The translations under genes were made by a program, and so were the position numbers. The notes under the pieces were generated by a model. It was not told the DNA's origin, searched no databases, and saw nothing but the letters and a program-made list of their open reading frames with translations. Below are positions 14,505-38,275 of a stretch of DNA of 64,000 nucleotides, in pieces (within the stretch, counting starts at the first letter, position 1; each line of letters opens with the position of its first letter). The stretch is from the NCBI RefSeq assembly GCF_021155765.1, contig NC_060116.1, positions 7,068,001 through 7,132,000 of the forward strand, given 5' to 3'. This DNA is from Diprion similis (Eukaryota > Arthropoda > Insecta > Hymenoptera > Diprionidae).

Positions 14505-15019
14505 ATATCACGGACCGACTGCGACTCAACGACGGAAGGCAAAAACCCAAAATAGAAAGATAAGTTAAAACAAAAAGTAGTTTCATTCTATAAAATTGTT
14601 TGTCGATCTTTGTAAATTATGTATTGTAGGTCAAGTTTATTTTGTTCTTGTTTTAGTGTGTATGTGTGAATGATTCTTTTTAGAGATACATATATTTTTA
14701 AGAGATTTAACTTGACTTTTGAGATTTTGGCTATTGCCCCTAATTGTGCGTCGGTGTACCTTTTATTTATATTTATTTATACGTCGATTTCTACCAATAT
14801 ATATCTAATTATCGATATACCTTTCTTTATGTTGTATCTATTTTAATTTTATCTCGTTGATGATTTGGGCCGATATATTTTATAATCGAAATTTCTTCAC
14901 CCCAAATTCATTACAAAAATAGTTACTGATCTATTATCTCCCATGCCCCGTACACGCCAGACAGCGGTTCCTACCCTATCGGGACTGGCTGGTGGAGGAT
15001 GTAAAAAAGATAAAAATAG
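13249..15019. other. KDSR upstream region and spacer before the satellite array
   Basis: It should hold the KDSR 5' UTR and promoter just right of 13248. No second gene was recognised. A (TA)n tract lies at 14472-14498. The last 90 bp before the array are noticeably richer in G and C than the rest. Confidence 0.55.
14472..14498. repeat. (TA)n tract
   Basis: A simple dinucleotide run in AT-rich spacer DNA. Confidence 0.85.
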
Positions 15020-15650
15020 TTTTCTAGGTTCCTAAGAGTCCATTTGATACAAAAAGGGTCATGCCAATTGATTCCGAGACAAAAAGCTTTTCGCCGAAAA
15101 TATAGGCGAGGTTAACCGCTTTGGATTTTTGACGAGAATCTCAGTAATCAGAAAAACTTGTTTTATACCCTATGAGGACATGATTTTGCTAAAGGAATCA
15201 ACTGCTTGCAGTCTCAATACGCTGCGAGCAACGGATCAAAAGTTACAGCCGTAAAACGAAAGACGTATTTTCTCAATTTTCCTGCTGATGGTCTTTGCGT
15301 CGTCATTTCTCTGCTGTTGGTCCTACGCTTTTTTTGTTGACTTTTCTGAGTTCCTGGGAGTCTGATTGAGCTAGAAAGCGTCATACTAATTGATTCCGAA
15401 ATAAAGGATTCTCAACTCCAAAATTGACCAAAAGAGTAAGGCTAACCCCTTTGAATTTTTGGCGAAAATTTCGACGACTTTGAAAAGTGCTGCAATTGAT
15501 TCTTTAGGGCACTATTCCGACGTAATTTTGCGAGAGAAATCGATTGAGCGCAGTCCCAATACGCTGCGAGCAACGGATCAAAAGTTACAGCCAAAAAACT
15601 GCAAATTTTCATCGTCATTTCTCTGCTGTTGATCCTACGCTTTTTTTAAT
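15020..15650. repeat. Decayed left-edge monomers of the 312-bp array
   Basis: Two or so monomers are recognisable but carry many substitutions and indels, for example TAGGTTCCTAAGAG in place of GAGTTCCTGGGG and CTGATTGAGCTAGAAAGCG in place of CCAATTAGCCAAGAAACGG. The spacing of the first landmark is off by roughly ten bases. This is the usual appearance of an array edge that escapes homogenisation. Confidence 0.8.
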
Positions 15651-18600
15651 GTGTTTTTTGAGTTCCTGGGGTTCCACTTAGCCAAGAAACGGTCATACAA
15701 ATCTATTCGGAGACCAGAAATTTTCGGCTCCGAAAATCGCAAAAAAAGTGAGGCTAACCCCTTTGGATTTTTGGCGAAAATTTCGACGACTTTGAAAAGT
15801 GCTGCAATTAATTCTTTGGGGCACTATTCCGACGTAATTTTGCGAGAGAAATCGATTGAGCGCAGTCCCAATACGCTGCGAGCAACGGATCAAAAGTTAC
15901 AGCCAAAAAACTGCAAATTTTCATCGTCATTTCTCTGCTGTGTATCCTACGCTTTTTTTAATGTGTTTTTTGAGTTCCTGGGGTTCCAATTAGCCAAGAA
16001 ACGGCCATACAAATCAATTCGGAGACCAGAAATTTTCGGCTTCGAAAATCGCAAAAAAAGTAAGGCTAACCCCTTTGGATTTTTGGCGAAAATTTCGACG
16101 ACTTTGAAAAGTGCTGCAATTGATTCTTCAGGGCCCTATTCCGACGCAATTTTGCGAGAGAAATCGATTGAGCGCAGTCCCAATACGCTGCGAGCAACGG
16201 ATCAAAAGTTACAGCCAAAAAACTGCAAATTTTCATCGTCATTTCTCTGCTGTGTATCCTACGCTTTTTTCAATGTGTTTTTCGAGTTCCTGGGGTTCCA
16301 ATTAGCCAAGAAACGGCCATACAAATCGATTCGGAGACCAGAAATTTTCGGCTCCTAAATCGCAAAAAAAGTAAGGCTAACCCCTTTGGATTTTTAGCGA
16401 AAATTTCGACGACTTTGAAAAGTGCTGCAATTATTTCTTTAGGGCACTATTCCGACGTAATTTTGCGAGAGAAATCGATTGAGCGCAGTCCCAATACGCT
16501 GCGAACAACGGATCAAAAGTTACAGCCACAAAACTGCAGATTTTCATCGTCATTTCTCTGCCGTTGGTCCTACGCTTTTTTTGATGTGTTTTTTGAGTTC
16601 CTGGGGTCCCAATTAGCCAAAAAACGGTCATACGAATCAATTCGGAGACCAGAAATTTTCGGCTTAAAAAATCGCAAAAAAAGTAAGGCTAACCCCTTTG
16701 GATTTTTGGCGAAAATTTCGACGACTTTGAAAAGTGCTGCAATTGATTCTTTAGGGCACTATTCCGACGTAATTTTGCGAGAGAAATCGATTGAGCGCAG
16801 TCCCAATACGCTGCGAGCAACGGATCAAAAGTTACAGCCAAAAAACTGCAGATTTTCATCCTCATTTCTCTGCCGTTGGTCCTACGCTTTTTTTGATGTG
16901 TTTTTTGAGTTCCTGGGGTCCCAATTAGCCAAGAAACGGTCATACGAATCAATTCGGAGACCAGAAATTTTCGGCTCAAAAAATCGCAAAAAAAGTAAGG
17001 CTAACCCCTTGGGATTTTTGGCGAAAATTTCGACGACTTTGAAAAGTGCTGCAATTAATTCTTTAGGGCACTATTCCGACGTAATTTTGCGAGAGAAATC
17101 GATTGAGCGCAGTCCCAATACGCTGCGAGCAACGGATCAAAAGTTACAGCCAAAAAACTGCAAATTTTCATCGTCATTTCTCTGCTGTTGATCCTACGCT
17201 TTTTTTAATGTGTTTTCTGAGTTCCTGGGGTCCCAATTAGCCAAGAAACGGCCATACAAATCAATTCGGAGACCAGAAATTTTCGGCTCCGAAAATCGCC
17301 AAAAAAGTAAGGCTAACCCCTTTGGATTTTTGGCGAAAATTTCGACGACTTCGAAAAGTGCTGCAATTGATTCTTTAGGGCCCTATTCCGACGTAATTTT
17401 GCGAGAGAAATCGATTGAGCGCAGTCCCAATACGCTGCGAGCAACGGATCAAAAGTTACAGCCAAAAAACTGCGAATTTTCATCGTCATTTCTCTGCTGT
17501 TGATCCTACGCTTTTTTTAATGTGTTTTCTGAGTTCCTGGGGTTCCAATTAGCCAAGAAACGGCCGTACAAATCAATTCGGAGACCAGAAATTTTCGGCT
17601 CCGAAAATCGCAAAAAAAGTAAGGCTAACCCCTTTGGATTTTTGGCGAAAATTTTGACGACTTTGAAAAGTGCTGCAATTAATTCTTTAGGGCACTATTC
17701 CGACGTAATTTTGCGAGAGAAATCGATTGAGCGCAGTCCCAATACGCTGCGAGCAACGGATCAAAAGTTACAGCCAAAAAACTGAAGATTTTCATCGTCA
17801 TTTCTCTGCCGTTGGTCCTACGCTTTTTTTGATGTGTTTTTTGAGTTCCTGGGGTCCCAATTAGCCAAGAAACGGTCATACGAATCAATTCGGAGACCAG
17901 AAATTTTCGGCTCAAAAAATCGCAAAAAAAGTAAGGCTAACCCTTTGGAGTTTTGGCGAGAATTTCGACGACTTTGAAAAGTGCTGCAAATAATTCTTTA
18001 GGGCACTATTCCGACGTAATTTTGCGAGAGAAATCGATTAGGCGCAGTCCCAATACGCTGCGAGCAACGGATCAAAAGTTACAGCCAAAAAACTGCAGAT
18101 TTTCATCCTCATTTCTCTGCCGTTGGTCCTACGCTTTTTTTGATGTGTTTTTCGAGTTCCTGGGGTCCCAATTAGCCAAGAAACGGTCATACGAATCAAT
18201 TCGGAGACCAGAAATTTTCGGCTCCGAAAATCGCAAAAAAAGTAAGGCTAACCCCTTTGGATTTTTGGCGAAAATTTCGACGACTTTGAAAAGTGCTGCA
18301 ATTGATTCTTTAGGGCCCTATTCCGACGTAATTTTGCGAGAGAAATCGATTGAGCGCAGTCCCAATACGCTGCGAGCAACGGATCAAAAGTTACAGCCAA
18401 AAAACTGCAAATTTTCATCGTCATTTCTCTGCTGTTGATCCTACGCTTTTTTTAATGTGTTTTTTGAGTTCCTGGGGTTCCAATTAGCCAAGAAACGGAC
18501 ATACGAATCAATTCGGAGACCAGAAATTTTCGGCTCTGAAAATCGCGAAAAAAGTAAGGCTAACCCCTTTGGATTTTTGGCGAAAATTTCGACGACTTTG

Positions 18601-20640
18601 AAAAGTGCTGCAATTGATTCTTTAGGGCCCTATTCCGACGTAATTTTGCGAGAGAAATCGATTGAGCGCAGTCCCAATACGCTGCGAGCAACGGATCAAA
18701 AGTTACAGCCAAAAAACTGCAAATTTTCATCGTCATTTCTCTGCTGTGTATCCTACGCTTTTTTTAATGTGTTTTTTGAGTTCCTGGGGTTCCAATTAGC
18801 CAAGAAACGGACATACGAATCAATTCGGAGACCAGAAATTTTCGGCTCTGAAAATCGCGAAAAAAGTAAGGCTAACCCCTTTGGATTTTTGGCGAAAATT
18901 TCGACGACTTTGAAAAGTGCTGCAATTGATTCTTTAGGGCCCTATTCCGACGTAATTTTGCGAGAGAAATCGATTGAGCGCAGTCCCAATACGCTGCGAG
19001 CAACGGATCAAAAGTTACAGCCAAAAAACTGCAAATTTTCATCGTCATTTCTCTGCTGTTGATCCTACGCTTTTTTTAATGTGTTTTTTGAGTTCCTGGG
19101 GTTCCAATTAGCCAAGAAACGGACATACGAATCAATTCGGAGACCAGAAATTCTCGGCTCTGAAAATCGCGAAAAAAGTAAGGCTAACCCCTTTGGATTT
19201 TTGGCGAAAATTTCGACGACTTTGAAAAGTGCTGCAATTGATTCTTTAGGGCCCTATTCCGACGTAATTTTGCGAGAGAAATCGATTGAGCGCAGTCCCA
19301 ATACGCTGCGAGCAACGGATCAAAAGTTACAGCCAAAAAACTGCAAATTTTCATCGTCATTTCTCTGCTGTTGATCCTACGCTTTTTTTAATGTGTTTTT
19401 TGAGTTCCTGGGGTTCCAATTAGCCAAGAAACGGACATACGAATCAATTCGGAGACCAGAAATTTTCGGCTCTGAAAATCGCGAAAAAAGTAAGGCTAAC
19501 CCCTTTGGATTTTTGGCGAAAATTTCGACGACTTTGAAAAGTGCTGCAATTGATTCTTTAGGGCCCTATTCCGACGTAATTTTGCGAGAGAAATCGATTG
19601 AGCGCAGTCCCAATACGCTGCGAGCAACGGATCAAAAGTTACAGCCAAAAAACTGCAAATTTTCATCGTCATTTCTCTGCTGTTGATCCTACGCTTTTTT
19701 TAATGTGTTTTTTGAGTTCCTGGGGTTCCAATTAGCCAAGAAACGGACATACGAATCAATTCGGAGACCAGAAGCTTTCGGCTCTGAAAATCGCGAAAAA
19801 AGTAAGGCTAACCCCTTTGGATTTTTGGCGAAAATTTCGACGACTTTGAAAAGTGCTGCAATTGATTCTTTAGGGCCCTATTCCGACGTAATTTTGCGAG
19901 AGAAATCGATTGAGCGCAGTCCCAATACGCTGCGAGCAACGGATCAAAAGTTACAGCCAAAAAACTGCAAATTTTCATCGTCATTCCTCTGCTGTTGATC
20001 CTACGCTTTTTTTAATGTGTTTTCTGAGTTCCTGGGGTTCCAATTAGCCAAGAAACGGCCATACAAATCAATTCGGAGACCAGAAATTTTCGGCTCCGAA
20101 AATCGCAAAAAAAGTAAGGCTAACCCCTTTGGATTTTTGGCGAAAATTTCGACGACTTTGAAAAGTGCTGCAATTGATTCTTTAGGGCCCTATTCCGACG
20201 TAATTTTGCGAGAGAAATCGATTGAGCGCAGTCCCAATACGCTGCGAGCAACGGATCAAAAGTTACAGCCAAAAAACTGCAAATTTTCATCGTCATTTCT
20301 CTGCTGTGTATCCTACGCTTTTTTTAATGTGTCTTTTGAGTTCCTGGGGTTCCAATTAGCCAAGAAACGGACATACGAATCAATTCGGAGACCAGAAATT
20401 TTCGGCTCTGAAAATCGCAAAAAAAGTAAGGCTAACCCCTTTGGATTTTTGGCGAAAATTTCGACGACTTTGAAAAGTGCTGCAATTGATTCTTTAGGGC
20501 CCTATTCCGACGTAATTTTGCGAGAGAAATCGATTGAGCGCAGTCCCAATACGCTGCGAGCAACGGATCAAAAGTTACAGCCAAAAAACTGCAAATTTTC
20601 ATCGTCATTTCTCTGCTGTGTATCCTACGCTTTTTTTAAT

Positions 20641-23600
20641 GTGTCTTTTGAGTTCCTGGGGTTCCAATTAGCCAAGAAACGGACATACGAATCAATTCGG
20701 AGACCAGAAATTTTCGGCTCTGAAAATCGCAAAAAAAGTAAGGCTAACCCCTTTGGATTTTTGGCGAAAATTTCGACGACTTTGAAAAGTGCTGCAATTG
20801 ATTCTTTAGGGCCCTATTCCGACGTAATTTTGCGAGAGAAATCGATTGAGCGCAGTCCCAATACGCTGCGAGCAACGGATCAAAAGTTACAGCCAAAAAA
20901 CTGCAAATTTTCATCGTCATTTCTCTGCTGTTGATCCTACGCTTTTTTTAATGTGTTTTCTGAGTTCCTGGGGTTCCAATTAGCCAAGAAACGGCCATAC
21001 CAATCAATTCGGAGATCAGAAATTTTCGGCTCCGAAAATCGCAAAAAAAGTAAGGCTAACCCCTTTGGATTTTTGGCGAAAATTTCGAAGACTTTGAAAA
21101 GTGCTGCAATTGATTCTTTAGGGCCCTATTCCGACGTAATTTTGCGAGAGAAATCGATTGAGCGCAGTCCCAATACGCTGCGAGCAACGGATCAAAAGTT
21201 ACAGCCAAAAAACTGCAAATTTTCATCGTCATTTCTCTGCTGTTGATCCTACGCTTTTTTTAATGTGTTTTTTGAGTTCCTGGGGTTCCAATTAGCCAAG
21301 AAACGGACATACGAATCAATTCGGAGACCAGAAATTTTCGGCTCTGAAAATCGCGAAAAAAGTAAGGCTAACCCCTTTGGATTTTTGGCGAAAATTTCGA
21401 CGACTTTGAAAAGTGCTGCAATTGATTCTTTAGGGCCCTATTCCGACGTAATTTTGCGAGAGAAATCGATTGAGCGCAGTCCCAATACGCTGCGAGCAAC
21501 GGATCAAAAGTTACAGCCAAAAAACTGCAAATTTTCATCGTCATTTCTCTGCTGTTGATCCTACGCTTTTTTTAATGTGTTTTTTGAGTTCCTGGGGTTC
21601 CAATTAGCCAAGAAACGGACATACGAATCAATTCGAAAACCAGAAATTTTCGGCTCTGAAAATCGCGAAAAAAGTAAGGCTAACCCCTTTGGATTTTTGG
21701 CGAAAATTTCGACGACTTTGAAAAGTGCTGCAATTGATTCTTTAGGGCCCTATTCCGACGTAATTTTGCGAGAGAAATCGATTGAGCGCAGTCCCAATAC
21801 GCTGCGAGCAACGGATCAAAAGTTACAGCCAAAAAACTGCAAATTTTCATGGTCATTTCTCTGCTGTTGATCCTACGCTTTTTTTAATGTTTTTTTTGAG
21901 TTCCTGGGGTTCCAATTAGCCAAGAAACGGCCATACAAATCAATTCGGAGACCAGAAATTTTCGGCTCCGAAAATCGCAAAAAAAGTAAGGCTAACCCCT
22001 TTGGATTTTTGGCGAAAATTTCGACGACTTTGAAAAGTGCTGCAATTGATTCTTTAGGGCCCTATTCCGACGTAATTTTGCGAGAGAAATCGATTGAGCG
22101 CAGTCCCAATACGCTGCGAGCAACGGATCAAAAGTTACAGCCAAAAAACTGCAAATTTTCATCGTCATTCCTCTGCTGTGTATCCTACGCTTTTTTTGAT
22201 GTGTTTTTTGAGTTCCTGGGGTTCCAATTAGCCAAGAAACGGCCATACGAATCAATTCGGAGACCAAAAATTTTCGGCTCCGAAAATCGCAAAAAAAGTA
22301 AGGCTAACCCCTTTGGATTTTTGGCGAAAATTTCGACGACTTTGAAAAGTGCTGCAATTGATTCTTTAGGGCCCTATTCCGACGTAATTTTGCGAGAGAA
22401 ATCGATTGAGCGCAGTCCCAATACGCTGCGAGCAACGGATCAAAAGTTACAGCCATAAAACTGCAAATTTTCATCGTCATTTCTCTGCTGTTGATCCTAC
22501 GCTTTTTTTAATGTGTTTTCTGAGTTCCTGGGGTTCCAATTAGCCAAGAAACGGCCATACAAATCAATTCGGAGACCAGAAATTTTCGGCTCCGAAAATC
22601 GCAAAAAAAGTAAGGCTCACCCCTTCGGATTTTTGGCGAAAATTTCGACGACTTTGAAAAGTGCTGCAATTGATTCTTTAGGGCCCTATTCCGACGTTAT
22701 TTTGCGAGAGAAATCGATTGAGCGCAGTCCCAATACGCTGCGAGCAACGGATCAAAAGTTACAGCCAAAAAACTGCAAATTTTCATCGTCATTTCTCTGC
22801 TGTGTATCCTACGCTTTTTTTAATGTGTTTTTTGAGTTCCTGGGGTTCCAATTAGCCAAGAAACGGACATACGAATCAATTCGGAGACCAGAAATTTTCG
22901 GCTCTGAAAATCGCAAAAAAAGTAAGGCTAACCCCTTTGGATTTTTGGCGAAAATTTCGACGACTTTGAAAAGTGCTGCAATTGATTCTTTAGGGCCCTA
23001 TTCCGACGTAATTTTGCGAGAGAAATCGATTGAGCGCAGTCCCAATACGCTGCGAGCAACGGATCAAAAGTTACAGCCAAAAAACTGCAAATTTTCATCG
23101 TCATTTCTCTGCTGTGTATCCTACGCTTTTTTTAATGTGTTTTTTGAGTTCCTGGGGTTCCAATTAGCCAAGAAACGGACATACGAATCAATTCGGAGAC
23201 CAGAAATTTTCGGCTCTGAAAATCGCAAAAAAAGTAAGGCTAACCCCTTTGGATTTTTGGCGAAAATTTCGACGACTTTGAAAAGTGCTGCAATTGATTC
23301 TTTAGGGCCCTATTCCGACGTAATTTTGCGAGAGAAATCGATTGAGCGCAGTCCCAATACGCTGCGAGCAACGGATCAAAAGTTACAGCCAAAAAACTGC
23401 AAATTTTCATCGTCATTTCTCTGCTGTTGATCCTACGCTTTTTTTAATGTGTTTTCTGAGTTCCTGGGGTTCCAATTAGCCAAGAAACGGCCATACAAAT
23501 CAATTCGGAGACCAGAAATTTTCGGCTCCGAAAATCGCAAAAAAAGTAAGGCTAACCCCTTTGAATTTTTGGCGAAAATTTCGACGACTTTGAAAAGTGA

Positions 23601-23760
23601 TGCAATTGATTCTTTAGGGCCCTATTCCGACGTAATTTTGCGAGAGAAATCGATTGAGCGCAGTCCCAATACGCTGCGAGCAACGGATCAAAAGTTACAG
23701 CCAAAAAACTGCAAATTTTCAGCGTCATTTCTCTGCTGTTGATCCTACGCTTTTTTTAAT
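20641..23760. repeat. Ten-monomer block, copy 1 of a long-range duplication in the array
   Basis: This block matches 27817-30936 at a constant offset of 7176 bp, which is exactly 23 monomers. Rare variants occur in both copies at the same offset: ATTCGAAAACCAG, TTCATGGTCATT, AGCCATAAAACTGC (22451 and 29627), GGCTCACCCCTTCGG and GACGTTATTTTGC. Monomers left and right of the block do not share such markers. Confidence 0.85.
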
Positions 23761-25480
23761 GTTTTTTTTGAGTTCCTGGGGTTCCAATCAGCCAAGAAAC
23801 GGCCATACAAATTAATTCGGAGACCAGAAATTTTCGGCTCCGAAAATCGCCAAAAAAGTAAGGCTAACCCCTTTGGATTTTTGTCGAAAATTTCGACGAC
23901 TTTGAAAAGTGCTGCAATTGATTCTTCAGGGCCCTATTCCGACGTAATTTTGCGAGAGAAATCGATTGAGCGCAGTCCCAATACGCTGCGAGCAACGGAT
24001 CAAAAGTTACAGCCAAAAAACTGCAAATTTTCATCGTCATTTCTCTGCTGTGTATCCTACGCTCTTTTTAATGTGTTTTTTGAGTTCCTGGGGTTCCAAT
24101 TAGCCAAGAAACGACCATACAAATCAATTCGGAGACCAGAAATTTTCGGCTCCGAAAATCGCAAAAACAGTAAGGCTAACCCCTTTGGATTTTTGGCGAA
24201 AATTGCGACGACTTTGAAAAGTGCTGCAATTGATTCTTTAGGGCCCTATTCCGACGTAATTTTGCGAGAGAAATCGATTGAGCGCAGTCCCAATACGCTG
24301 CGAGCAACGGATCAAAAGTTACAGCCAAAAAACTGCAAATTTTCATCGTTATTTCTCTGCTGTTGATCCTACGCTTTTTTTAATGTGTTTTTTGAGTTCC
24401 TGGGGTTCCAATTAGCCAAGAAACGGCCATACAAATCAATTCGGAGACCAGAAATTTTCGGCTTCGAAAATCGCAAAAAAAGTAAGGCTAACCCCTTTGG
24501 ATTTTTGGCCAAAATTTCGACGACTTTGAGAAGTGCTGCAATTGATTCTTTAGGGCCCTATTCCGACGTAATTTTGCGAGAGAAATCGATTGAGCGCAGT
24601 CCCAATACGCTGCGAGCAACGGATCAAAAGTTACAGCCAAAAAACTGCAAATTTTCAGCGTCATTTCTCTGCTGTTGATCCTACGCTTTTTTTAATGTTT
24701 TTTTTGAGTTCCTGGGGTTCCAATTAGCCAAGAAACGGCCATACAAATTAATTCGGAGACCAGAAATTTTCGGCTCCGAAAATCGCCAAAAAAGTAAGGC
24801 TAACCCCTTTGGATTTTTGTCGAAAATTTCGACGACTTTGAAAAGTGCTGCAATTGATTCTTCAGGGCCCTATTCCGACGTAATTTTGCGAGAGAAATCG
24901 ATTGAGCGCAGTCCCAATACGCTGCGAGCAACGGATCAAAAGTTACAGCCAAAAAACTGCAAATTTTCATCGTCATTTCTCTGCTGTGTATCCTACGCTC
25001 TTTTTCATGTGTTTTTTGAGTTTCTGGGGTTCCAATTAGCCAAGAAACGACCATACAAATCAATTCGGAGACCAGAAATTTTCAGCTCCGAAAATCGCAA
25101 AAACAGTAAGGCTAACCCCTTTGGATTTTTGGCGAAAATTGCGACGACTTTGAAAAGTGCTGCAATTGATTCTTTAGGGCCCTATTCCGACGTAATTTTG
25201 CGAGAGAAATCGATTGAGCGCAGTCCCAATACGCTGCGAGCAACGGATCAAAAGTTACAGCCAAAAAACTGCAAATTTTCATCGTTATTTCTCTGCTGTT
25301 GATCCTACGCTTTTTTTAATGTGTTTTTTGAGTTCCTGGGGTTCCAATTAGCCAAGAAACGGCCATACAAATCAATTCGGAGACCAGAAATTTTCGGCTT
25401 CGAAAATCGCAAAAAAAGTAAGGCTAACCCCTTTGGATTTTTGGCCAAAATTTCGACGACTTTGAAAAGTGCTGCAATTG
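23700..25480. repeat. Tandem duplication of a three-monomer (936-bp) block
   Basis: A run of unusual variants appears twice 936 bp apart: TTCAGCGTCATTTC (23717 and 24653), AAATTAATTCGG, TTTTGTCGAAAATTT (23879 and 24815), ACGCTCTTTTT, GAAACGACCATAC, AAAAACAGTAAGG, AATTGCGACG, CATCGTTATTT and TTGGCCAAAATTT. This is a block copy of three monomers, nested in the larger array. Confidence 0.85.
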
Positions 25481-27816
25481 ATTCTTTAGGGCCCTATTCC
25501 GACGTAATTTTGCGAGAGAAATCGATTGAGCGCAGTCCCAATACGCTGCGAGCAACGGATCAAAAGTTACAGCCAAAAAACTGCAAATTTTCATCGTCAT
25601 TCCTCTGCTGTGTATCCTACGCTTTTTCTAATGTGTTTTTTGAGTTCCTGGGGTTCCAATTAGCCAAGAAACGGCCATACAAATCAATTCGGAGACCAGA
25701 AATTTTCGGCTCCGAAAATCGCAAAAAAAGTAAGGCTAACCCCTTTGGATTTTTGGCGAAAATTCCGACGACTTTGAAAAGTGTTGCAATTGATTCTTTA
25801 GGGCCCTATTCCGACGTAATTTTGCGAGAGAAATCGATTGAGCGCAGTCCCAATACGCTGCGAGCAACGGATCAAAAGTTACAGCCAAAAAACTGCAAAT
25901 TTTCATCGTCATTTCTCTGCTGTTGATCCTACGCTTTTTTTAATGTGTTTTTTGAGTTCCTGGGGTTCCAATTAGCCAAGAAACGGACATACGAATCAAT
26001 TCGGAGACCAGAAATTTTCGGCTCTGAAAATCGCGAAAAAAGTAAGGCTAACCCCTTTGGATTTTTGGCGAAAATTTCGACGACTTTGAAAAGTGCTGCA
26101 ATTGATTCTTTAGGGCCCTATTCCGACGTAATTTTGCGAGAGAAATCGATTGAGCGCAGTCCCAATACGCTGCGAGCAACGGATCAAAAGTTACAGCCAA
26201 AAAACTGCAAATTTTCATCGTCATTTCTCTGCTGTGTATCCTACGCTTTTTTTAATGTGTTTTTTGAGTTCCTGGGGTTCCAATTAGCCAAGAAACGGAC
26301 ATACGAATCAATTCGGAGACCAGAAATTTTCGGCTCTGAAAATCGCAAAAAAAGTAAGGCTAACCCCTTTGGATTTTTGGCGAAAATTTCGACGACTTTG
26401 AAAAGTGCTGCAATCGATTTTTTAGGGCCCTATTCCGACGTAATTTTGCGAGAGAAATCGATTGAGCGCAGTCCCAATACGCTGCGAGCAACGGATCAAA
26501 AGTTACAGCCAAAAAACTGCAAATTTTCATCGTCATTTCTCTGCTGTTGATCCTACGCTTTTTTTAATGTCTTTTCTGAGTTCCTGGGGTTCCAATTAGC
26601 CAAGAAACGGCCATACAAATTAATTCGGAGACCAGAAATTTTCGGCTCCGAAAATCGCAAAAAAAGTAAGGCTAACCCCTTTGGATTTTTGGCGAAAATT
26701 TCGACGACTTTGAAAAGTGCTGCAATTGATTCTTTAGGGCCCTATTCCGACGTAATTTTGCGAGAGAAATCGATTGAGCGCAGTCCCAATACGCTGCGAG
26801 CAACGGATCAAAAGTTACAGCCAAAAAACTGCAAATTTTCATCGTCATTTCTCTGCTGTTGATCCTACGCTTTTTTTAATGTGTTTTTTGAGTTCCTGGG
26901 GTTCCAATTAGCCAAGAAACGGACATACGAATTAATTCGGAGACCAGAAATTTTCGGCTCTGAAAATCGCGAAAAAAGTAAGGCTAACCCCTTTGGATTT
27001 TTGGCGAAAATTTCGACGACTTTGAAAAGTGCTGCAATTGATTCTTTAGGGCCCTATTCCGACGTAATTTTGCGAGAGAAATCGATTGAGCGCAGTCCCA
27101 ATACGCTGCGAGCAACGGATCAAAAGTTACAGCCAAAAAACTGCAAATTTTCATCGTCATTTCTCTGCTGTTGATCCTACGCTTTTTTTAATGTGTTTTT
27201 TGAGTTCCTGGGGTTCCAATTAGCCAAGAAACGGACATACGAATCAATTCGGAGACCAGAAATTTTCGGCTCTGAAAATCGCGAAAAAAGTAAGGCTAAC
27301 CCCTTTGGATTTTTGGCGAAAATTTCGACGACTTTGAAAAGTGCTGCAATTGATTCTTTAGGGCCCTATTCCGACGTAATTTTGCGAGAGAAATCGATTG
27401 AGCGCAGTCCCAATACGCTGCGAGCAACGGATCAAAAGTTACAGCCAAAAAACTGCAAATTTTCATCGTCATTTCTCTGCTGTTGATCCTACGCTTTTTT
27501 TAATGTGTTTTTTGAGTTCCTGGGGTTCCAATTAGCCAAGAAACGGACATACGAATCAATTCGGAGACCAGAAATTTTCGGCTCTGAAAATCGCGAAAAA
27601 AGTAAGGCTAACCCCTTTGGATTTTTGGCGAAAATTTCGACGACTTTGAAAAGTGCTGCAATTGATTCTTTAGGGCCCTATTCCGACGTAATTTTGCGAG
27701 AGAAATCGATTGAGCGCAGTCCCAATACGCTGCGAGCAACGGATCAAAAGTTACAGCCAAAAAACTGCAAATTTTCATCGTCATTTCTCTGCTGTGTATC
27801 CTACGCTTTTTTTAAT

Positions 27817-30800
27817 GTGTCTTTTGAGTTCCTGGGGTTCCAATTAGCCAAGAAACGGACATACGAATCAATTCGGAGACCAGAAATTTTCGGCTCTGAA
27901 AATCGCAAAAAAAGTAAGGCTAACCCCTTTGGATTTTTGGCGAAAATTTCGACGACTTTGAAAAGTGCTGCAATTGATTCTTTAGGGCCCTATTCCGACG
28001 TAATTTTGCGAGAGAAATCGATTGAGCGCAGTCCCAATACGCTGCGAGCAACGGATCAAAAGTTACAGCCAAAAAACTGCAAATTTTCATCGTCATTTCT
28101 CTGCTGTTGATCCTACGCTTTTTTTAATGTGTTTTCTGAGTTCCTGGGGTTCCAATTAGCCAAGAAACGGCCATACAAATCAATTCGGAGACCAGAAATT
28201 TTCGGCTCCGAAAATCGCAAAAAAAGTAAGGCTAACCCCTTTGGATTTTTGGCGAAAATTTCGAAGACTTTGAAAAGTGCTGCAATTGATTCTTTAGGGC
28301 CCTATTCCGACGTAATTTTGCGAGAGAAATCGATTGAGCGCAGTCCCAATACGCTGCGAGCAACGGATCAAAAGTTACAGCCAAAAAACTGCAAATTTTC
28401 ATCGTCATTTCTCTGCTGTTGATCCTACGCTTTTTTTAATGTGTTTTTTGAGTTCCTGGGGTTCCAATTAGCCAAGAAACGGACATACGAATCAATTCGG
28501 AGACCAGAAATTTTCGGCTCTGAAAATCGCGAAAAAAGTAAGGCTAACCCCTTTGGATTTTTGGCGAAAATTTCGACGACTTTGAAAAGTGCTGCAATTG
28601 ATTCTTTAGCGCCCTATTCCGACGTAATTTTGCGAGAGAAATCGATTGAGCGCAGTCCCAATACGCTGCGAGCAACGGATCAAAAGTTACAGCCAAAAAA
28701 CTGCAAATTTTCATCGTCATTTCTCTGCTGTTGATCCTACGCTTTTTTTAATGTGTTTTTTGAGTTCCTGGGGTTCCAATTAGCCAAGAAACGGACATAC
28801 GAATCAATTCGAAAACCAGAAATTTTCGGCTCTGAAAATCGCGAAAAAAGTAAGGCTAACCCCTTTGGATTTTTGGCGAAAATTTCGACGACTTTGAAAA
28901 GTGCTGCAATTGATTCTTTAGGGCCCTATTCCGACGTAATTTTGCGAGAGAAATCGATTGAGCGCAGTCCCAATACGCTGCGAGCAACGGATCAAAAGTT
29001 ACAGCCAAAAAACTGAAAATTTTCATGGTCATTTCTCTGCTGTTGATCCTACGCTTTTTTTAATGTTTTTTTTGAGTTCCTGGGGTTCCAATTAGCCAAG
29101 AAACGGCCATACAAATCAATTCGGAGACCAGAAATTTTCGGCTCCGAAAATCGCAAAAAAAGTAAGGCTAACCCCTTTGGATTTTTGGCGAAAATTTCGA
29201 CGACTTTGAAAAGTGCTGCAATTGATTCTTTAGGGCCCTATTCCGACGTAATTTTGCGAGAGAAATCGATTGAGCGCAGTCCCAATACGCTGCGAGCAAC
29301 GGATCAAAAGTTACAGCCAAAAAACTGCAAATTTTCATCGTCATTCCTCTGCTGTGTATCCTACGCTTTTTTTAATGTGTTTTTTGAGTTCCTGGGGTTC
29401 CAATTAGCCAAGAAACGGCCATACGAATCAATTCGGAGACCAAAAATTTTCGGCTCCGAAAATCGCAAAAAAAGTAAGGCTAACCCCTTTGGATTTTTGG
29501 CGAAAATTTCGACGACTTTGAAAAGTGCTGCAATTGATTCTTTAGGGCCCTATTCCGACGTAATTTTGCGAGAGAAATCGATTGAGCGCAGTCCCAATAC
29601 GCTGCGAGCAACGGATCAAAAGTTACAGCCATAAAACTGCAAATTTTCATCGTCATTTCTCTGCTGTTGATCCTACGCTTTTTTTAATGTGTTTTCTGAG
29701 TTCCTGGGGTTCCAATTAGCCAAGAAACGGCCATACAAATCAATTCGGAGACCAGAAATTTTCGGCTCCGAAAATCGCAAAAAAAGTAAGGCTCACCCCT
29801 TCGGATTTTTGGCGAAAATTTCGACGACTTTGAAAAGTGCTGCAATTGATTCTTTAGGGCCCTATTCCGACGTTATTTTGCGAGAGAAATCGATTGAGCG
29901 CAGTCCCAATACGCTGCGAGCAACGGATCAAAAGTTACAGCCAAAAAACTGCAAATTTTCATCGTCATTTCTCTGCTGTGTATCCTACGCTTTTTTTAAT
30001 GTGTTTTTTGAGTTCCTGGGGTTCCAATTAGCCAAGAAACGGACATACGAATCAATTCGGAGACCAGAAATTTTCGGCTCTGAAAATCGCAAAAAAAGTA
30101 AGGCTAACCCCTTTGGATTTTTGGCGAAAATTTCGACGACTTTGAAAAGTGCTGCAATTGATTCTTTAGGGCCCTATTCCGACGTAATTTTGCGAGAGAA
30201 ATCGATTGAGCGCAGTCCCAATACGCTGCGAGCAACGGATCAAAAGTTACAGCCAAAAAACTGCAAATTTTCATCGTCATTTCTCTGCTGTGTATCCTAC
30301 GCTTTTTTTAATGTGTTTTTTGAGTTCCTGGGGTTCCAATTAGCCAAGAAACGGACATACGAATCAATTCGGAGACCAGAAATTTTCGGCTCTGAAAATC
30401 GCAAAAAAAGTAAGGCTAACCCCTTTGGATTTTTGGCGAAAATTTCGACGACTTTGAAAAGTGCTGCAATTGATTCTTTAGGGCCCTATTCCGACGTAAT
30501 TCTGCGAGAGAAATCGATTGAGCGCAGTCCCAATACGCTGCGAGCAACGGATCAAAAGTTACAGCCAAAAAACTGCAAATTTTCATCGTCATTTCTCTGC
30601 TGTTGATCCTACGCTTTTTTTAATGTGTTTTCTGAGTTCCTGGGGTTCCAATTAGCCAAGAAACGGCCATACAAATCAATTCGGAGACCAGAAATTTTCG
30701 GCCCCGAAAATCGCAAAAAAAGTAAGGCTAACCCCTTTGGATTTTTGGCGAAAATTTCGACGACTTTGAAAAGTGCTGCAATTGATTCTTTAGGGCCCTA

Positions 30801-30936
30801 TTCCGACGTAATTTTGCGAGAGAAATCGATTGAGCGCAGTCCCAATACGCTGCGAGCAACGGATCAAAAGTTACAGCCAAAAAACTGCAAATTTTCATCG
30901 TCATTTCTCTGCTGTTGATCCTACGCTTTTTTTAAT
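27817..30936. repeat. Ten-monomer block, copy 2 of a long-range duplication in the array
   Basis: Second copy of 20641-23760, with the same rare variants in the same order and no net indel over 23 monomers. It has its own later changes, such as TTTAGCGCCC near 28610 and GGCCCCGAAAATC near 30700. Confidence 0.85.
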
Positions 30937-32496
30937 GTGTTTTTTGAGTTCCTGGGGTTCCAATTAGCCAAGAAACGGACATACGAATCAATTCGGAGAC
31001 CAGAAATTTTCGGCTCTGAAAATCGCGAAAAAAGTAAGGCTAACCCCTTTGGATTTTTGGCGAAAATTTCGACGACTTTGAAAAGTGCTGCAATTGATTC
31101 TTTAGGGCCCTATTCCGACGTAATTTTGCGAGAGAAATCGATTGAGCGCAGTCCCAATACGCTGCGAGCAACGGATCAAAAGTTACAGCCAAAAAACTGC
31201 AAATTTTCATCGTCATTTCTCTGCTGTTGATCCTACGCTTTTTTTAATGTGTTTTTTGAGTTCCTGGGGTTCCAATTAGCCAAGAAACGGACATACGAAT
31301 CAATTCGGAGACCAGAAATTTTCGGCTCTGAAAATCGCGAAAAAAGTAAGGCTAACCCCTTTGGATTTTTGGCGAAAATTTCGACGACTTTGAAAAGTGC
31401 TGCAATTGATTCTTTAGGGCCCTATTCCGACGTAATTTTGCGAGAGAAATCGATTGAGCGCAGTCCCAATACGCTGCGAGCAACGGATCAAAAGTTACAG
31501 CCAAAAAACTGCAAATTTTCATCGTCATTTCTCTGCTGTTGATCCTACGCTTTTTTTAATGTGTTTTTTGAGTTCCTGGGGTTCCAATTAGCCAAGAAAC
31601 GGACATACGAATCAATTCGGAGACCAGAAATTTTCGGCTCTGAAAATCGCGAAAAAAGTAAGGCTAACCCCTTTGGATTTTTGGCGAAAATTTCGACGAC
31701 TTTGAAAAGTGCTGCAATTGATTCTTTAGGGCCCTATTCCGACGTAATTTTGCGAGAGAAATCGATTGAGCGCAGTCCCAATACGCTGCGAGCAACGGAT
31801 CAAAAGTTACAGCCAAAAAACTGCAAATTTTCATCGTCATTTCTCTGCTGTTGATCCTACGCTTTTTTTAATGTGTTTTTTGAGTTCCTGGGGTTCCAAT
31901 TAGCCAAGAAACGGACATACGAATCAATTCGGAGACCAGAAATTTTCGGCTCCGAAAATCGCGAAAAAAGTAAGGCTAACCCCTTTGGATTTTTGGCGAA
32001 AATTTCGACGACTTTGAAAAGTGCTGCAATTGATTCTTTAGGGCCCTATTCCGACGTAATTTTGCGAGAGAAATCGATTGAGCGCAGTCCCAATACGCTG
32101 CGAGCAACGGATCAAAAGTTACAGCCAAAAAACTGCAAATTTTCATCGTCATTTCTCTGCTGTGTATCCTACGCTTTTTTTAATGTGTCTTTTGAGTTCC
32201 TGGGGTTCCAATTAGCCAAGAAACGGACATACGAATCAATTCGGAGACCAGAAATTTTCGGCTCTGAAAATCGCAAAAAAAGTAAGGCTAACCCCTTTGG
32301 ATTTTTGGCGAAAATTTCGACGACTTTGAAAAGTGCTGCAATTGATTCTTTAGGGCCCTATTCCGACGTAATTTTGCGAGAGAAATCGATTGAGCGCAGT
32401 CCCAATACGCTGCGAGCAACGGATCAAAAGTTACAGCCAAAAAACTGCAAATTTTCATCGTCATTTCTCTGCTGTTGATCCTACGCTTTTTTTAAT

Positions 32497-34992
32497 GTGT
32501 TTTCTGAGTTCCTGGGGTTCCAATTAGCCAAGAAACGGCCATACAAATCAATTCGGAGACCAGAAATTTTCGGCTCCGAAAATCGCAAAAAAAGTAAGGC
32601 TAACCCCTTTGGATTTTTGGCGAAAATTTCGACGACTTTGAAAAGTGCTGCAATTGATTCTTTAGGGCCCTATTCCGACGTAATTTTGCGAGAGAAATCG
32701 ATTGAGCGCAGTCCCAATACGCTGCGAGCAACGGATCAAAAGTTACAGCCAAAAAACTGCAAATTTTCATCGTCATTCCTCTGCTGTGTATCCTACGCTT
32801 TTTCTAATGTGTTTTTTGAGTTCTTGGGGTTCCAATTAGCCAAGAAACGGCCATACAAATCAATTCGGAGACCAGAAATTTTCGGCTCCGAAAATCGCAA
32901 AAAAAGTAAGGCTAACCCCTTTGGATTTTTGGCGAAAATTTCGACGACTTTGAAAAGTGCTGCAATTGATTCTTTAGGGCCCTATTCCGACGTAATTTTG
33001 CGAGAGAAATCGATTGAGCGCAGTCCCAATACGCTGCGAGCAACGGATCAAAAGTTACAGCCAAAAAACTGCAAATTTTCATCGTCATTTCTCTGCTGTT
33101 GATCCTACGCTTTTTTTAATGTGTTTTCTGAGTTCCTGGGGTTCCAATTAGCCAAGAAACGGCCATACAAATCAATTCGGAGACCAGAAATTTTCGGCTC
33201 CGAAAATCGCAAAAAAAGTAAGGCTAACCCCTTTGGATTTTTGGCGAAAATTTCGACGACTTTGAAAAGTGCTGCAATTGATTCTTTAGGGCCCTATTCC
33301 GACGTAATTTTGCGAGAGAAATCGATTGAGCGCAGTCCCAATACGCTGCGAGCAACGGATCAAAAGTTACAGCCAAAAAACTGCAAATTTTCATCGTCAT
33401 TCCTCTGCTGTTGATCCTACGCTTTTTTTAATGTGTTTTCTGAGTTCCTGGGGTTCCAATTAGCCAAGAAACGGCCATACAAATCAATTCGGAGACCAGA
33501 AATTTTCGGCTCCGAAAATCGCAAAAAAAGTAAGGCTAACCCCTTTGGATTTCTGGCGAAAATTTCGACGACTTTGAAAAGTGCTGCAATTGATTCTTTA
33601 GGGCCCTATTCCGACGTAATTTTGCGAGAGAAATCGATTGAGCGCAGTCCCAATACGCTGCGAGCAACGGATCAAAAGTTACAGCCAAAAAACTGCAAAT
33701 TTTCATCGTCATTTCTCTGCTGTTGATCCTACGCTTTTTTTAATGTGTTTTCTGAGTTCCTGGGGTTCCAATTAGCCAAGAAACGGCCATACAAATCAAT
33801 TCGGAGACCAGAAATTTTCGGCTCCGAAAATCGCAAAAAAAGTAAGGCTAACCCCTTTGGATTTTTGGCGAAAATTTCGACGACTTTGAAAAGTGCTGCA
33901 ATTGATTCTTTAGGGCCCTATTCCGACGTAATTTTGCGAGAGAAATCGATTGAGCGCAGTCCCAATACGCTGCGAGCAACGGATCAAAAGTTACAGCCAA
34001 AAAACTGCAAATTTTCATCGTCATTTCTCTGCTGTTGATCCTACGCTTTTTTTAATGTGTTTTCTGAGTTCCTGGGGTTCCAATTAGCCAAGAAACGGCC
34101 ATACAAATCAATTCGGAGACCAGAAATTTTCGGCTCCGAAAATCGCAAAAAAAGTAAGGCTAACCCCTTTGGATTTTTGGCGAAAATTTCGACGACTTTG
34201 AAAAGTGCTGCAATTGATTCTTTAGGGCCCTATTCCGACGTAATTTTGCGAGAGAAATCGATTGAGCGCAGTCCCAATACGCTGCGAGCAACGGATCAAA
34301 AGTTACAGCCAAAAAACTGCAAATTTTCATCGTCATTCCTCTGCTGTTGATCCTACGCTTTTTTTAATGTGTTTTCTGAGTTCCTGGGGTTCCAATTAGC
34401 CAAGAAACGGCCATACAAATCAATTCGGAGACCAGAAATTTTCGGCTCCGAAAATCGCAAAAAAAGTAAGGCTAACCCCTTTGGATTTTTGGCGAAAATT
34501 TCGACGACTTTGAAAAGTGCTGCAATTGATTCTTTAGGGCCCTATTCCGACGTAATTTTGCGAGAGAAATCGATTGAGCGCAGTCCCAATACGCTGCGAG
34601 CAACGGATCAAAAGTTACAGCCAAAAAACTGCAAATTTTCATCGTCATTTCTCTGCTGTTGATCCTACGCTTTTTTTAATGTGTTTTCTGAGTTCCTGGG
34701 GTTCCAATTAGCCAAGAAACGGCCATACAAATCAATTCGGAGACCAGAAATTTTCGGCTCCGAAAATCGCAAAAAAAGTAAGGCTAACCCCTTTGGATTT
34801 TTGGCGAAAATTTCGACGACTTTGAAAAGTGCTGCAATTGATTCTTTAGGGCCCTATTCCGACGTAATTTTGCGAGAGAAATCGATTGAGCGCAGTCCCA
34901 ATACGCTGCGAGCAACGGATCAAAAGTTACAGCCAAAAAACTGCAAATTTTCATCGTCATTTCTCTGCTGTGTATCCTACGCTTTTTTTAAT
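32497..34992. repeat. Highly homogenised run of about eight near-identical monomers
   Basis: Consecutive monomers of the GTGTTTTCTGAG / GCCATACAAATC type differ at only a handful of positions (for example TTTCTGG near 33550 and TCATTCCTC against TCATTTCTC). This looks like the most recently expanded part of the array. Confidence 0.75.
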
Positions 34993-36552
34993 GTGTTTTT
35001 TGAGTTCCTGGGGTTTCAATTAGCCGAGAAACGGACATACGAATCAATTCGGAGACCAGAAATTTTCGGCTCTGAAAATCGCAAAAAAAGTAAGGCTAAC
35101 CCGTTTGGATTTTTGGCGAAAATTTCGACGACTTTGAAAAGTGCTGCAATTGATTCTTTAGGGCCCTATTCTGACGTAATTTTGCGAGAGATATCGATTG
35201 AGCGCAGTCCCAATACGCTGCGAGCAACGGATCAAAAGTTACAGCCAAAAAACTGCAAATTTTCATCGTCATTTCTCTGCTGTTGATCCTACGCTTTTTT
35301 TAATGTGTTTTCTGAGTTCCTGGGGTTCCAATTAGCCAAGAAACGGCCATACAAATCAATTCGGAGACCAGAAATTTTCGGCTCTGAAAATCGCAAAAAA
35401 AGTAAGGCTAACCCCTTTGTATTTTTGGCGAAAATTTCGACGACTTTGAAAAGTGCTGCAATTGATTCTTTAGGGCCCTATTCCGACGTAATTTTGCGAG
35501 AGAAATCGATTGAGCGCAGTCCCAATACGCTGCGAGCAACGGATCAAAAGTTACAGCCAAAAAACTGCAAATTTTCATCGTCATTTCTCTGCTGTGTATC
35601 CTACGCTTTTTTTAATGTGTTTTTTGAGTTCCTGGGGTTCCAATTAGCCAAGAAACGGACATACGAATCAATTCGGAGACCAGAAATTTTCGGCTCTGAA
35701 AATCGCAAAAAAAGTAAGGCTAACCCCTTTGGATTTTTGGCGAAAATTTCGACGACTTTGAAAAGTGCTGCAATTGATTCTTTAGGGCCCTATTCCGACG
35801 TAATTTTGCGAGAGAAATCGATTGAGCGCAGTCCCAATACGCTGCGAGCAACGGATCAAAAGTTACAGCCAAAAAACTGCAAATTTTCATCGTCATTTCT
35901 CTGCTGTTGATCCTACGCTTTTTTTAATGTGTTTTCTGAGTTCCTGGGGTTCCAATTAGCCAAGAAACGGCCATACAAATCAATTCGGAGACCAGAAATT
36001 TTCGGCTCCGAAAATCGCAAAAAAAGTAAGGCTAACCCCTTTGGATTTTTGGCGAAAATTTCGACGACTTTGAAAAGTGCTGCAATTGATTCTTTAGCGC
36101 CCTATTCCGACGTAATTTTGCGAGAGAAATCGATTGAGCGCAGTCCCAATACGCTGCGAGCAACGGATCAAAAGTTACAGCCAAAAAACTGCAAATTTTC
36201 ATCGTCATTTCTCTGCTGTGTATCCTACGCTTTTTTTAATGTGTTTTTTGAGTTCCTGGGGTTCCAATTAGCCAAGAAACGGCCATACAAATCAATTCGG
36301 AGACCAGAAATTTTCGGCTCCGAAAATCGCAAAAAAAGTAAGGCTAACCCCTTTGGATTTTTGGCGAAAATTTCGACGACTTTGAAAAGTGCTGCAATTG
36401 ATTCTTTAGGGCACTATTCCGACGTAATTTTGCGAGAGAAATCGATTGAGCGCAGTCCCAATACGCTGCGAGCAACGGATCAAAAGTTACAGCCAAAAAA
36501 CTGCAAATTTTCATCGTCATTTCTCTGCTGTGTATCCTACGCTTTTTTTAAT

Positions 36553-36808
36553 GTGTTTTTTGAGTTCCTGGGGTTCCGATAATCCAAGAAACGGCCATAC
36601 AAATCAATTCGGAGACCAGAAATTTTCGGCTCTGAAAATCGCAAAAAAAGTCAGGCTTACCCCTTTGGATTTCTGGCGAAAATTTCGACGACTTTGAAAA
36701 GTGCTGCAATTAATTCTTTAGATCACTTTTCCGACGTAATTTTGCGAGAGAAATCGATTGAGCGCAGTCACAATAAGCTGCGAGCAACGGATCAAAAGTT
36801 ACAGTCAC
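36553..36808. repeat. Truncated, diverged right-edge monomer
   Basis: The last unit carries private changes (CCGATAATCCAAG, GTCAGGCTTACC, TTTAGATCACTTTTCC, CACAATAAGC) and stops within the monomer just after AAAAGTTACAG. Unique AT-rich DNA follows at once. Confidence 0.85.
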
Positions 36809-38275
36809 AACTGTATCGAATATAGTGTTATCACAGGTATGTACATGTAATAACTGATTATTATTCGAGAACTCTTTTGCATTATTCGATAAAATTCAGC
36901 ATGCAAGAAACTCTTCTGTTCATAACAAATGCTGCATTTATAAAAATGATGGTATCAATATGCCAGTACGAGGCTATTAAATTCCTCACAATCTATGAAA
37001 TTCTCCGTTTTATTATCAATTCATCGATTCTATAGATGCGGATATTTTCTTGATTTCTTTAATGTTTGTAAAAAAAACCACTGTATGGTGTAAAAAACAA
37101 ATGAAATTACCTGTATATGTATTTTTCTATGCTGACAGTTAAAAATTGTCTTATTGTGATCCATAACATCATTAGTAGGACTCCGATACTAGATCTTAGT
37201 TTAGTAATATAATAGGCAATTCTAAATGTATGTAACAATAAAACTGGTTGTTTTGTATTACGATAATCTATGTATTTACATTTACATGTTTCCGTGTGTA
37301 CAAGATCGTTGAAAAACATCAGAATGTTTACAATTTATGTTTTCCACTTTTTCATAAATTCTTTGTTGCTTAAAACCTTTCACGAATTTTGTTATTTATT
37401 TACAGTAAAAAAATTTATCTGGTAACAACGTTGAAACTACGGCCCTTCATCATTTGCCTAGTTATGAATTTCGTCTACGGGTAATATCATATTCCAGTTT
37501 TCATTTAAAAAAATGAATATGCTGATACGAATATAAATTGAGTATGAAAATCGACGATGAAATCCATACTCTCATTATTATGTACAAATTCCGAAATACA
37601 TAATTCAGCGTGGTTGCTTAGACTATCTAACTGATTTTACAGGAAATGTACATAGCTGGTAATAAATGGTTCTCGCATCTCTCAGGTCATTTACACTTTA
37701 GCCTTATATCAAATATTGTGCTACAACGGGCGTAAATGAAATACATTTTGGTCATTGAATTGTCTATTCCTTCTACTCATACGTCGATTTTTTGCTAATG
37801 AATCAAGTATGAGCGTCCATCCGAGTAGCTGATTTTCATCAAGTAATAAAAGTTAACCAATTTACTTAAATTTTATTTACAAAAATGACAATAAAATAAG
37901 ATAAACATTTGTTGGCCTCATATATACTCGACATACATTATTTCGCATAACAAAATACCTAATATTAACGCGTGTCCTTAATCTCTGCGTAAATATGAGT
38001 AACGAATCGAAATAGCAACTAAGTTATGCCGATAAAAGTCTCCGTAAAACAAAGTACATCCTTTCTGCATTGCATTTTCATGAAAATGAAGTTTAATTTA
38101 AATTTTACAAAGCCGTAGACTGATTCGAACTTCTTTTATGGATAAAACTGTAACGGTTGAACCGATGAAAAGTAATGAAAAATAAATTACAGCTTAGCAA
38201 GCATGAAAATTTTTCTCAGAGATTGCAAAATGTTTGTCATAGATATCTCAGGACTGTTGGACTTTTGGCGAATCG
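36809..38275. other. Unique AT-rich spacer between array and INTS3 3' end
   Basis: No gene, RNA or mobile element was recognised. It follows the satellite abruptly and runs to the INTS3 polyadenylation signal. Confidence 0.6.

Follow-up and report, generated by a model that had tools for sequence, protein, structure and literature searches.

Gene-interspersed satellite DNA is a known kind of sequence. In Tribolium, TCAST repeats are dispersed in the euchromatin with a preference for single copies, and sequence clustering was not significant in earlier work on TCAST1 and TCAST2 (PMC5844308). Satellite families described in 2015 form numerous tandem arrays that are almost exclusively euchromatic (PMC5844308, PMC10218199), and each family mostly accounts for 1% of the genome or less (PMC10218199). 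In Drosophila and Locusta, satellites with a main block in heterochromatin also have short arrays in euchromatin, and gene-rich DNA is among the many places where the same repeat is found (PMC10048060). Finally, in the holocentric plant Rhynchospora pubera, thousands of regularly spaced Tyba arrays of 15-25 kb lie amid other DNA and bind CENH3 (PMC10264360).

Here, we describe a 312-bp satellite in Diprion similis, seen in a stretch of 64,000 nucleotides (the window). In the assembly, a mitochondrial COI reading frame and the TTAGG-type repeats on two of four contig ends are as expected for an insect. The array in the window is a good example of this known kind and is not unique. The satellite is like the 2015 families in forming numerous tandem arrays, but the species and the sequence are different, single arrays reach tens of kilobases, and its share of the genome is larger (about 2.3%). 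Unlike TCAST, its copies form long arrays with strong array-specific homogenization. As in Drosophila and Locusta, the repeat is present at many places, including gene-rich DNA, but there is no main block among the spans listed (it may be unassembled or outside the list). The array in the window is about as large as a Tyba array, but the loci listed crowd into one zone per contig instead of being regularly spaced. In literature searches by repeat length and taxon, we recognized no title as describing the 312-bp repeat.

A homogeneous array between two genes

In the window, TRF reports a tandem repeat at 15300-36804 with a period of 312 bp (68.9 copies, 97% matches, score 40283). Local alignment extends the edges to about 15019 on the left, within a degenerate monomer, and to about 36810 on the right. 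We also scanned the window for GCTGCGAGCAACGGATCAAAAGTTACAG, a 28-bp piece of the monomer that we will term the box, with a limit of 7 mismatches. It occurs 70 times, from 15221 to 36777 (69 exact copies and one with one mismatch), and none was found on the opposite strand of the window. The step from one box to the next is 312 in 66 of 69 cases (311 in two and 342 in one). Taken together, TRF, the box spacing, and the edge alignments place the whole array, about 70 head-to-tail monomers, at 15019-36810 on the + strand. An array with this period at this place is far beyond chance. The first-pass annotation, which had claimed about 70 near-identical monomers of 312 bp at 15020-36808, was right about the extent, the period, and the copy number.

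The core of the array (15300-36804, + strand) is homogeneous, both by TRF and by the identity of its monomers to the consensus, which is 0.946-0.994 for the 66 full-length monomers. There are 45 distinct sequences among the 66 spans of 312 bp, and variation is found in 81 of the 312 columns. The box scan and the alignment identify one or more degenerate monomers at the left edge (15019-15299, + strand), where the exact box at 15221 is kept. At the other end, the final match to the monomer model is a partial monomer (36621-36813, + strand), and the array stops abruptly just past the box. No lag stands out as a higher-order repeat in this array, although identity rises slightly at lags of 3 and 23 monomers. 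At 1,127 bp, the longest stretch to be repeated exactly within the array is found at 22199-23325 and 29375-30501 (both on the + strand), which match letter for letter at a lag of 23 monomers (7,176 bp) and point to past exchange or duplication among the monomers. A second long exact repeat, of 925 bp, has a lag of 1 monomer.

For the monomer itself, we rejected a dimeric or half-monomer origin, as the ungapped self-identity at lag 149 (0.346) is inside the range of shuffles; the value at lag 1 (0.362, against a shuffle maximum of 0.359) reflects single-base runs. We also rejected a folded RNA or DNA element, as the one monomer folded was not different from shuffles (z of -0.82 as DNA and 0.07 as RNA). 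Across the whole window, no Rfam family reached its gathering score, and neither a hammerhead nor another known RNA motif was found. The 28-bp box ranks with the most conserved segments of the monomer (column-permutation P = 0.059), which is only suggestive of a CENP-B-like box.

The array lies between the 3' end of one gene and the 5' side of another. To its right is INTS3 (Integrator subunit 3; 38860-43643, - strand), with six exon pieces and matches to Pfam PF10189 and PF24566. One piece matches solved INTS3 chains at E 6e-104, and the nearest piece is about 2.05 kb from the array. To its left is a short-chain dehydrogenase (12177-13016, - strand; Pfam adh_short, PF00106) with two exon pieces, at 12177-12473 and 12543-13016. 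By eye, we picked from the list of open reading frames a probable first coding exon for this gene (about 13102-13248, - strand, with approximate borders), about 1.8 kb from the array; it would encode a hydrophobic N-terminus and has no match in Pfam. This KDSR-like gene is likely to be KDSR, but the name is not proven because ketodihydrosphingosine reductase is only among its weaker PDB matches. The first-pass annotation had named KDSR and INTS3 as flanking genes within 2 kb; the INTS3 part stands, the distances are about 2 kb, and the name KDSR becomes a likely one. Its view of a real satellite array among genes that look intact is upheld. The array does not overlap any of the exons described above.

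One of many arrays in the genome

A search of the whole assembly with the monomer, as the first-pass annotation had proposed, was done via the 28-bp box. The 269-Mb genome contains 19,543 copies (10,356 + 9,187) with up to 3 mismatches, while the reversed box, as a control, gave 0. At 312 bp per copy, 19,543 copies amount to about 6.1 Mb, or 2.3% of the genome. The matches listed fall at 57 or more loci, which are spread over 12 contigs (for 9 of these loci, one copy is listed). The largest span of matches listed is 68 kb and none is a megabase array, although large blocks may be unassembled. A cellular protein domain lies 1.3-3.1 kb away from 3 of 12 other arrays that we examined. Thus, the lodging of the array between two ordinary genes is real, but the emphasis that it had been given is not warranted, since this is one of dozens of such arrays. 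(Genome-wide, box variants that differ at a single site and are otherwise exact range from 3 copies, at positions 16 and 21, to 749 copies, at position 14. We draw no constraint from these counts because they are of amplified copies and not of events.)

Across 20 arrays, the mean identity of monomers is 0.943 within arrays and 0.898 between them, and 319 of 343 monomers have their best match in their own array (with ties shared). Each array has its own private variants. Several arrays have a homogeneous core and degenerate monomers at the edges, and abrupt, undecayed edges are found on the right of the window's array and on the left of an array at 7.26 Mb of contig C8. The 312-bp repeat is tandem, non-coding (see below), high-copy, and locally homogenized, and so it is satellite DNA.

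We propose that the window contains a mid-sized array of a gene-interspersed, non-coding satellite of moderate abundance that is homogenized locally, and that the separate arrays of this satellite number in the dozens, perhaps even the hundreds, with several sitting between genes. We give this explanation as a whole a probability of roughly 0.85. Unequal crossing-over or gene conversion within each array would keep its monomers uniform, and the exact copies, the private variants, and the decayed edges of several arrays are the kind of trace that such a process would leave. New arrays would arise rarely, when a piece is copied to another site, possibly via circular DNA or jointly with a flanking repeat. 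The array most likely has no job that is specific to either gene. It probably has no function or else forms local heterochromatin, which at most would be a small island upstream of the KDSR-like gene.

Among the matches listed, the loci on each contig are concentrated in a single multi-megabase zone. In the four complete lists (27 loci), the mean pairwise distance is 0.15 of the contig, as compared to 0.33 for uniform placement (P = 0.0002), although this clustering may be inflated, as neighbouring arrays can share the listing variant by descent. The most likely cause of the crowding would be lower recombination, or weaker selection against arrays, in these zones.

Alternative explanations

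A first alternative, which we hold only tentatively, is that the satellite is a centromeric or pericentromeric repeat and that the window belongs to a wide pericentromeric zone with interspersed genes. Besides the single zone per contig, there is the position of the array in the window, which, at 0.40 along contig C12, falls within the range of the other arrays listed on that contig (0.19, 0.27, and 0.53). Also, of four contig ends, two have TTAGG-type repeats and two have another repeat that, by eye, is not the 312-bp satellite. However, the ranges listed run from several to about sixteen megabases, the largest span listed is 68 kb, and genes are found 1-3 kb from arrays. Two loci are near contig ends (at 0.117 Mb on C1 and 0.136 Mb on C3), and those on C3 are spread from 0.01 to 0.85 of the contig. 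A spread over many megabases would be a poor fit to a tight pericentromere but would fit a broad zone that bears genes. The first-pass annotation had offered "euchromatic satellite" and "near a pericentromere" as its two readings, and both may be partly right; a euchromatic setting is suggested solely by the proximity of genes. The pericentromeric explanation is compatible with our preferred one and would say what the zones are.

A second alternative, which seems unlikely, is that the arrays belong to a mobile element, as tandem repeats within a transposon or at its end, and were spread by transposition. The 5' sides of 5 of 15 arrays do share non-satellite sequence, in two groups and in the same orientation, and two arrays with shared flanks (C8 at 1.59 Mb and C6 at 5.39 Mb) start at the same position in the monomer. 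Therefore, some of the spreading involved larger units. But the other 10 of 15, including the window's array, share nothing longer than a pair of 38-50 bp matches, which are on opposite strands, and array start positions within the monomer differ. The evidence for a target-site duplication at the window's array is unconvincing (only two 7-bp matches), and spans of up to 68 kb are too large for the usual mobile elements, which are smaller than that.

Third, the dozens of arrays, of which the largest listed is 68 kb, could jointly form a distributed, meta-polycentric-like centromere in the gene-bearing, multi-megabase zone of each chromosome. We consider this very unlikely. If it were true, kinetochore chromatin would be assembled on islands of satellite with genes such as KDSR and INTS3 between them.

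Even less probable is an assembly artefact that inflated the copy number or misplaced the array, given that 45 of 66 monomers are distinct, that the left edge is decayed, that private variants are found across 20 arrays, and that similar arrays lie on other contigs. Finally, we reject a monomer that encodes a repeated protein as next to impossible: one consensus frame is interrupted by one stop in 104 codons and open reading frames of 165-339 amino acids run through the array, but a frame as open as this one is found in 780 of 2000 first-order resampled monomers, the variable sites are flat across codon positions 1, 2, and 3 (28, 29, and 24), the synonymous share is 0.26 as compared to 0.22 expected, and the one array reading frame (223 amino acids) that we compared to Pfam had no match.

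Significance

Our preferred explanation, a locally homogenized satellite interspersed among genes, adds a clear case, on chromosome-sized contigs, of one satellite with many arrays that are tens of kilobases in size, each homogenized on its own. As several arrays are directly between genes, the spread and the tolerance of satellites in gene-rich DNA become testable. Also, the zone-like crowding of the loci listed offers a cheap prediction for the positions of centromeres or low-recombination regions in this species.

A satellite array between two genes

The first-pass annotation claimed a satellite array at 15020..36808, and this was borne out. By local alignment, the array begins at ~15019, where it is reached through a decayed monomer, and ends at ~36810, where it stops abruptly just past the anchor (a 28-bp piece of the 312-bp monomer). 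Tandem Repeats Finder reports a core at 15300-36804 with a period of 312, 68.9 copies, and 97% matches. On its + strand, the window has 70 copies of the anchor, 69 of them exact and one with a single mismatch; none was found on the − strand. Successive anchors are 312 bp apart in 66 of 69 steps (the exceptions are two steps of 311 and one of 342). The 66 monomers that measure exactly 312 bp represent 45 distinct sequences, and 81 of the 312 columns are variable.

The annotation also named KDSR and INTS3 as the flanking genes. INTS3 is confirmed: six exon pieces to the right of the array (38860-43643, − strand) match Pfam's Ints3_N (positions 1-170, 168-358, and 354-409 of 409) and HEAT_Ints3_C (positions 14-123, 146-271, and 264-393 of 393), and the one piece that we compared with solved structures matched INTS3. 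To the left is a short-chain dehydrogenase (12177-12473 and 12543-13016, − strand; Pfam). Judging from its sequence, this is likely to be KDSR, and no more than likely, because bacterial short-chain dehydrogenases outscore the 3-ketodihydrosphingosine reductase among its PDB matches. Its C-terminal motif may be one typical of KDSR, and its first exon is probably at ~13102-13248, as read by eye from the reading frames. Each gene lies ~2 kb from the array. As transcription of both genes runs leftward, the array lies 3' of INTS3 and 5' of the KDSR-like gene. (Elsewhere in the window, at 62970-63103, a short 30/60-bp tandem repeat within a − strand reading frame encodes an Arg-Glu dipeptide run; we found no Pfam match for this putative protein.)

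We considered several ideas about the monomer itself. It does not appear to be coding: the variable columns fall at codon positions 1, 2, and 3 in similar numbers (28, 29, and 24), the synonymous share, expected to be 0.22, is 0.26, and an equally open frame turned up in 780 of 2000 monomers generated by first-order resampling. It is no obvious dimer. One monomer, as DNA or as RNA, folded no better than shuffles, and an Rfam search of the window gave no match. Finally, the anchor is among the monomer's most conserved windows, with P = 0.059 by column permutation, so we do not claim a protein-binding box there.

Abundance and distribution of the satellite

The first-pass annotation had proposed a search of the whole assembly (269.0 Mb, 60 contigs), which established that the array is not alone. 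In this assembly the window occupies C12:7068001-7132000. We found 19,543 matches to the anchor with at most 3 mismatches (10,356 forward and 9,187 reverse) and none to a reversed-anchor control. This corresponds to ~6.1 Mb of satellite (19,543 × 312 bp), or 2.3% of the assembly, with further-decayed copies falling outside the count; the window's array contributes 70 of the matches.

To locate individual loci, we searched for rare variants of two parts of the monomer, the anchor and one other stretch, and added the places given by two other genome-wide searches, one of them the anchor count. Four variants were listed completely (3, 56, 71, and 3 places) and five in part (100 of 137, 251, 149, 749, and 173 places), so early contigs are over-represented. 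There are at least 57 loci, each more than ~100 kb from the next, across 12 contigs (C1, C2, C3, C4, C6, and C8-C14, of which the 11 whose lengths are known measure 14.3-28.0 Mb). Nine of these loci are known from one listed copy each; all eight of the single-copy listings that we read are arrays of at least 5 copies. Counting listed matches only, satellite spans reach 68 kb (C12, 3.403-3.471 Mb), 43 kb (C4, 18.158-18.202 Mb), 40 kb (C8, 7.260-7.300 Mb), and 39 kb (C4, 16.444-16.484 Mb).

The loci are clustered. For the 27 loci from complete lists (11 contigs, of which the 8 with at least two loci contribute; C11 was excluded), the mean pairwise distance within a contig was 0.15 of its length, versus 0.33 for uniform placement (P = 0.0002, 5000 placements). 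For 54 listed loci it was 0.18 versus 0.33, and none of 5000 uniform placements was as close. This clustering might be inflated if neighboring arrays share the listed variants by descent. C4 has ten listed loci at 0.45-0.74 of its length, C1 has eleven at 0.01-0.53, and C12 has four at 0.19-0.53, with the window's array at 7.083 Mb; C3 is the least clustered (eight, 0.01-0.85). A later list (100 of 173 places) added one locus, at 6.50 Mb on C8, within the earlier range. On C1, C2, C3, C4, C6, C8, C9, C10, and C12, the listed loci are concentrated in a single zone of several megabases on each contig, which we read as each chromosome having one broad, possibly pericentromeric, zone that gathers arrays.

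We also read four contig ends. The start of C12 (piece L040) and the end of C8 (L042) carry a different tandem repeat of ~270 bp, whose commonest words occur 11 times in 3 kb at each; by eye, the two look alike in opposite orientation. The other two ends have TTAGG-type repeats. Separately, a COI-like stretch inside the nuclear contig C7 (L058, ~8.18 Mb), with its mitochondrial reading broken off, is probably mitochondrial DNA that was copied into the nucleus.

Homogenization and spread of the arrays

We aligned 346 monomers from 21 arrays, excluding any with fewer than 260 of 312 positions aligned, and compared the 343 from the 20 arrays that contributed five or more each, which leaves out three from C8:1.6 (contig:Mb). 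Mean identity was 0.943 within arrays versus 0.898 between them, and the best match lay in the monomer's own array for 319 of 343 (ties shared; 266 of 278 in a smaller, earlier set). In two of the 20 arrays the within-array and other-array values were nearly equal (C9:7.8, 0.877 and 0.875; C6:8.9, 0.871 and 0.862), and in C1:2.9 the within-array identity was the lower (0.873 versus 0.885). Seven positions separate the window's consensus from the overall one. The window's array also contains an exact internal copy (22199-23325 equals 29375-30501, 23 monomers apart) and 925 bp that recur unchanged one monomer further on. Several arrays have a homogeneous core and decayed edges; edges are abrupt on the right of the window's array and on the left of the C8 7.26-Mb array. 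This is the pattern that repeated unequal exchange or conversion would leave if it took place inside each array and seldom between arrays.

How did the arrays spread? In satellite orientation, we compared the 5' sides of 15 arrays and the 3' sides of nine. Five of the 15 have non-satellite 5' flanks in common, in matching orientation, and fall into two groups that involve different contigs. In one, C8 1.59 Mb matches C6 5.39 and C6 8.91 Mb over separate stretches at 75-86% identity (pieces L059 2614-3754, L062 2529-3240, and the right flank of L063); in the other, the 600 bp right next to the array, which are repetitive in their own right, show 80% identity between C1 9.66 and C4 13.42 Mb (L055 4420-5016 and L054 92-686). 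For the remaining ten 5' sides, including the window's, the matches were limited to two, of 38-50 bp and between opposite strands. The 3' sides gave two weak matches (66-109 bp, 69-76%), one of which involves decayed satellite. In addition, both flanks of the C8 7.26-7.30-Mb array have 129 bp in common, and a 174-bp match (70%) links flanks of the C1 9.66 and C8 1.59 Mb arrays. The monomer position at which an array starts differs among most arrays. Some arrays may thus have been copied together with flanking sequence, and these comparisons (15 5' sides and nine 3' sides) did not reveal a single element that carries all of them.

A satellite interspersed with genes

Genes lie near other arrays as well. 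In 16 flank pieces from 12 other arrays, we listed the 26 longest reading frames of at least 75 amino acids and scanned ten with Pfam, of which four had matches and six had none. The four matches were a G-alpha exon (C9, 3.1 kb from the array at 7.79 Mb), a Frizzled-type domain (C8, 1.3 kb from the array at 7.26 Mb), a COMM-domain exon (C6, 2.7 kb from the array at 5.39 Mb), and an LTR retroelement frame that has RNase H and integrase domains (L061 6245-7999; C13, 0.4 kb from the array at 5.47 Mb). Thus, a search over part of the flanks placed a cellular protein domain close to three of the 12 arrays.

Centromeric arrays of 15-25 kb, about the size of the window's array, are described for Rhynchospora (PMC10264360). 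However, those arrays are regularly spaced and bound by CENH3, whereas the loci listed here form clusters. Satellite arrays in euchromatin are already known: the literature describes dispersed repeats associated with genes, together with tandem arrays in euchromatin, in Tribolium (PMC5844308), euchromatic arrays in other animals (reviewed in PMC10048060), and moderate-copy satellites found chiefly in euchromatic regions (PMC10218199). We put the probability that the window's array is real and belongs to the class of gene-interspersed satellites at roughly 0.85. Its genomic context, that of this class, makes the array ordinary.
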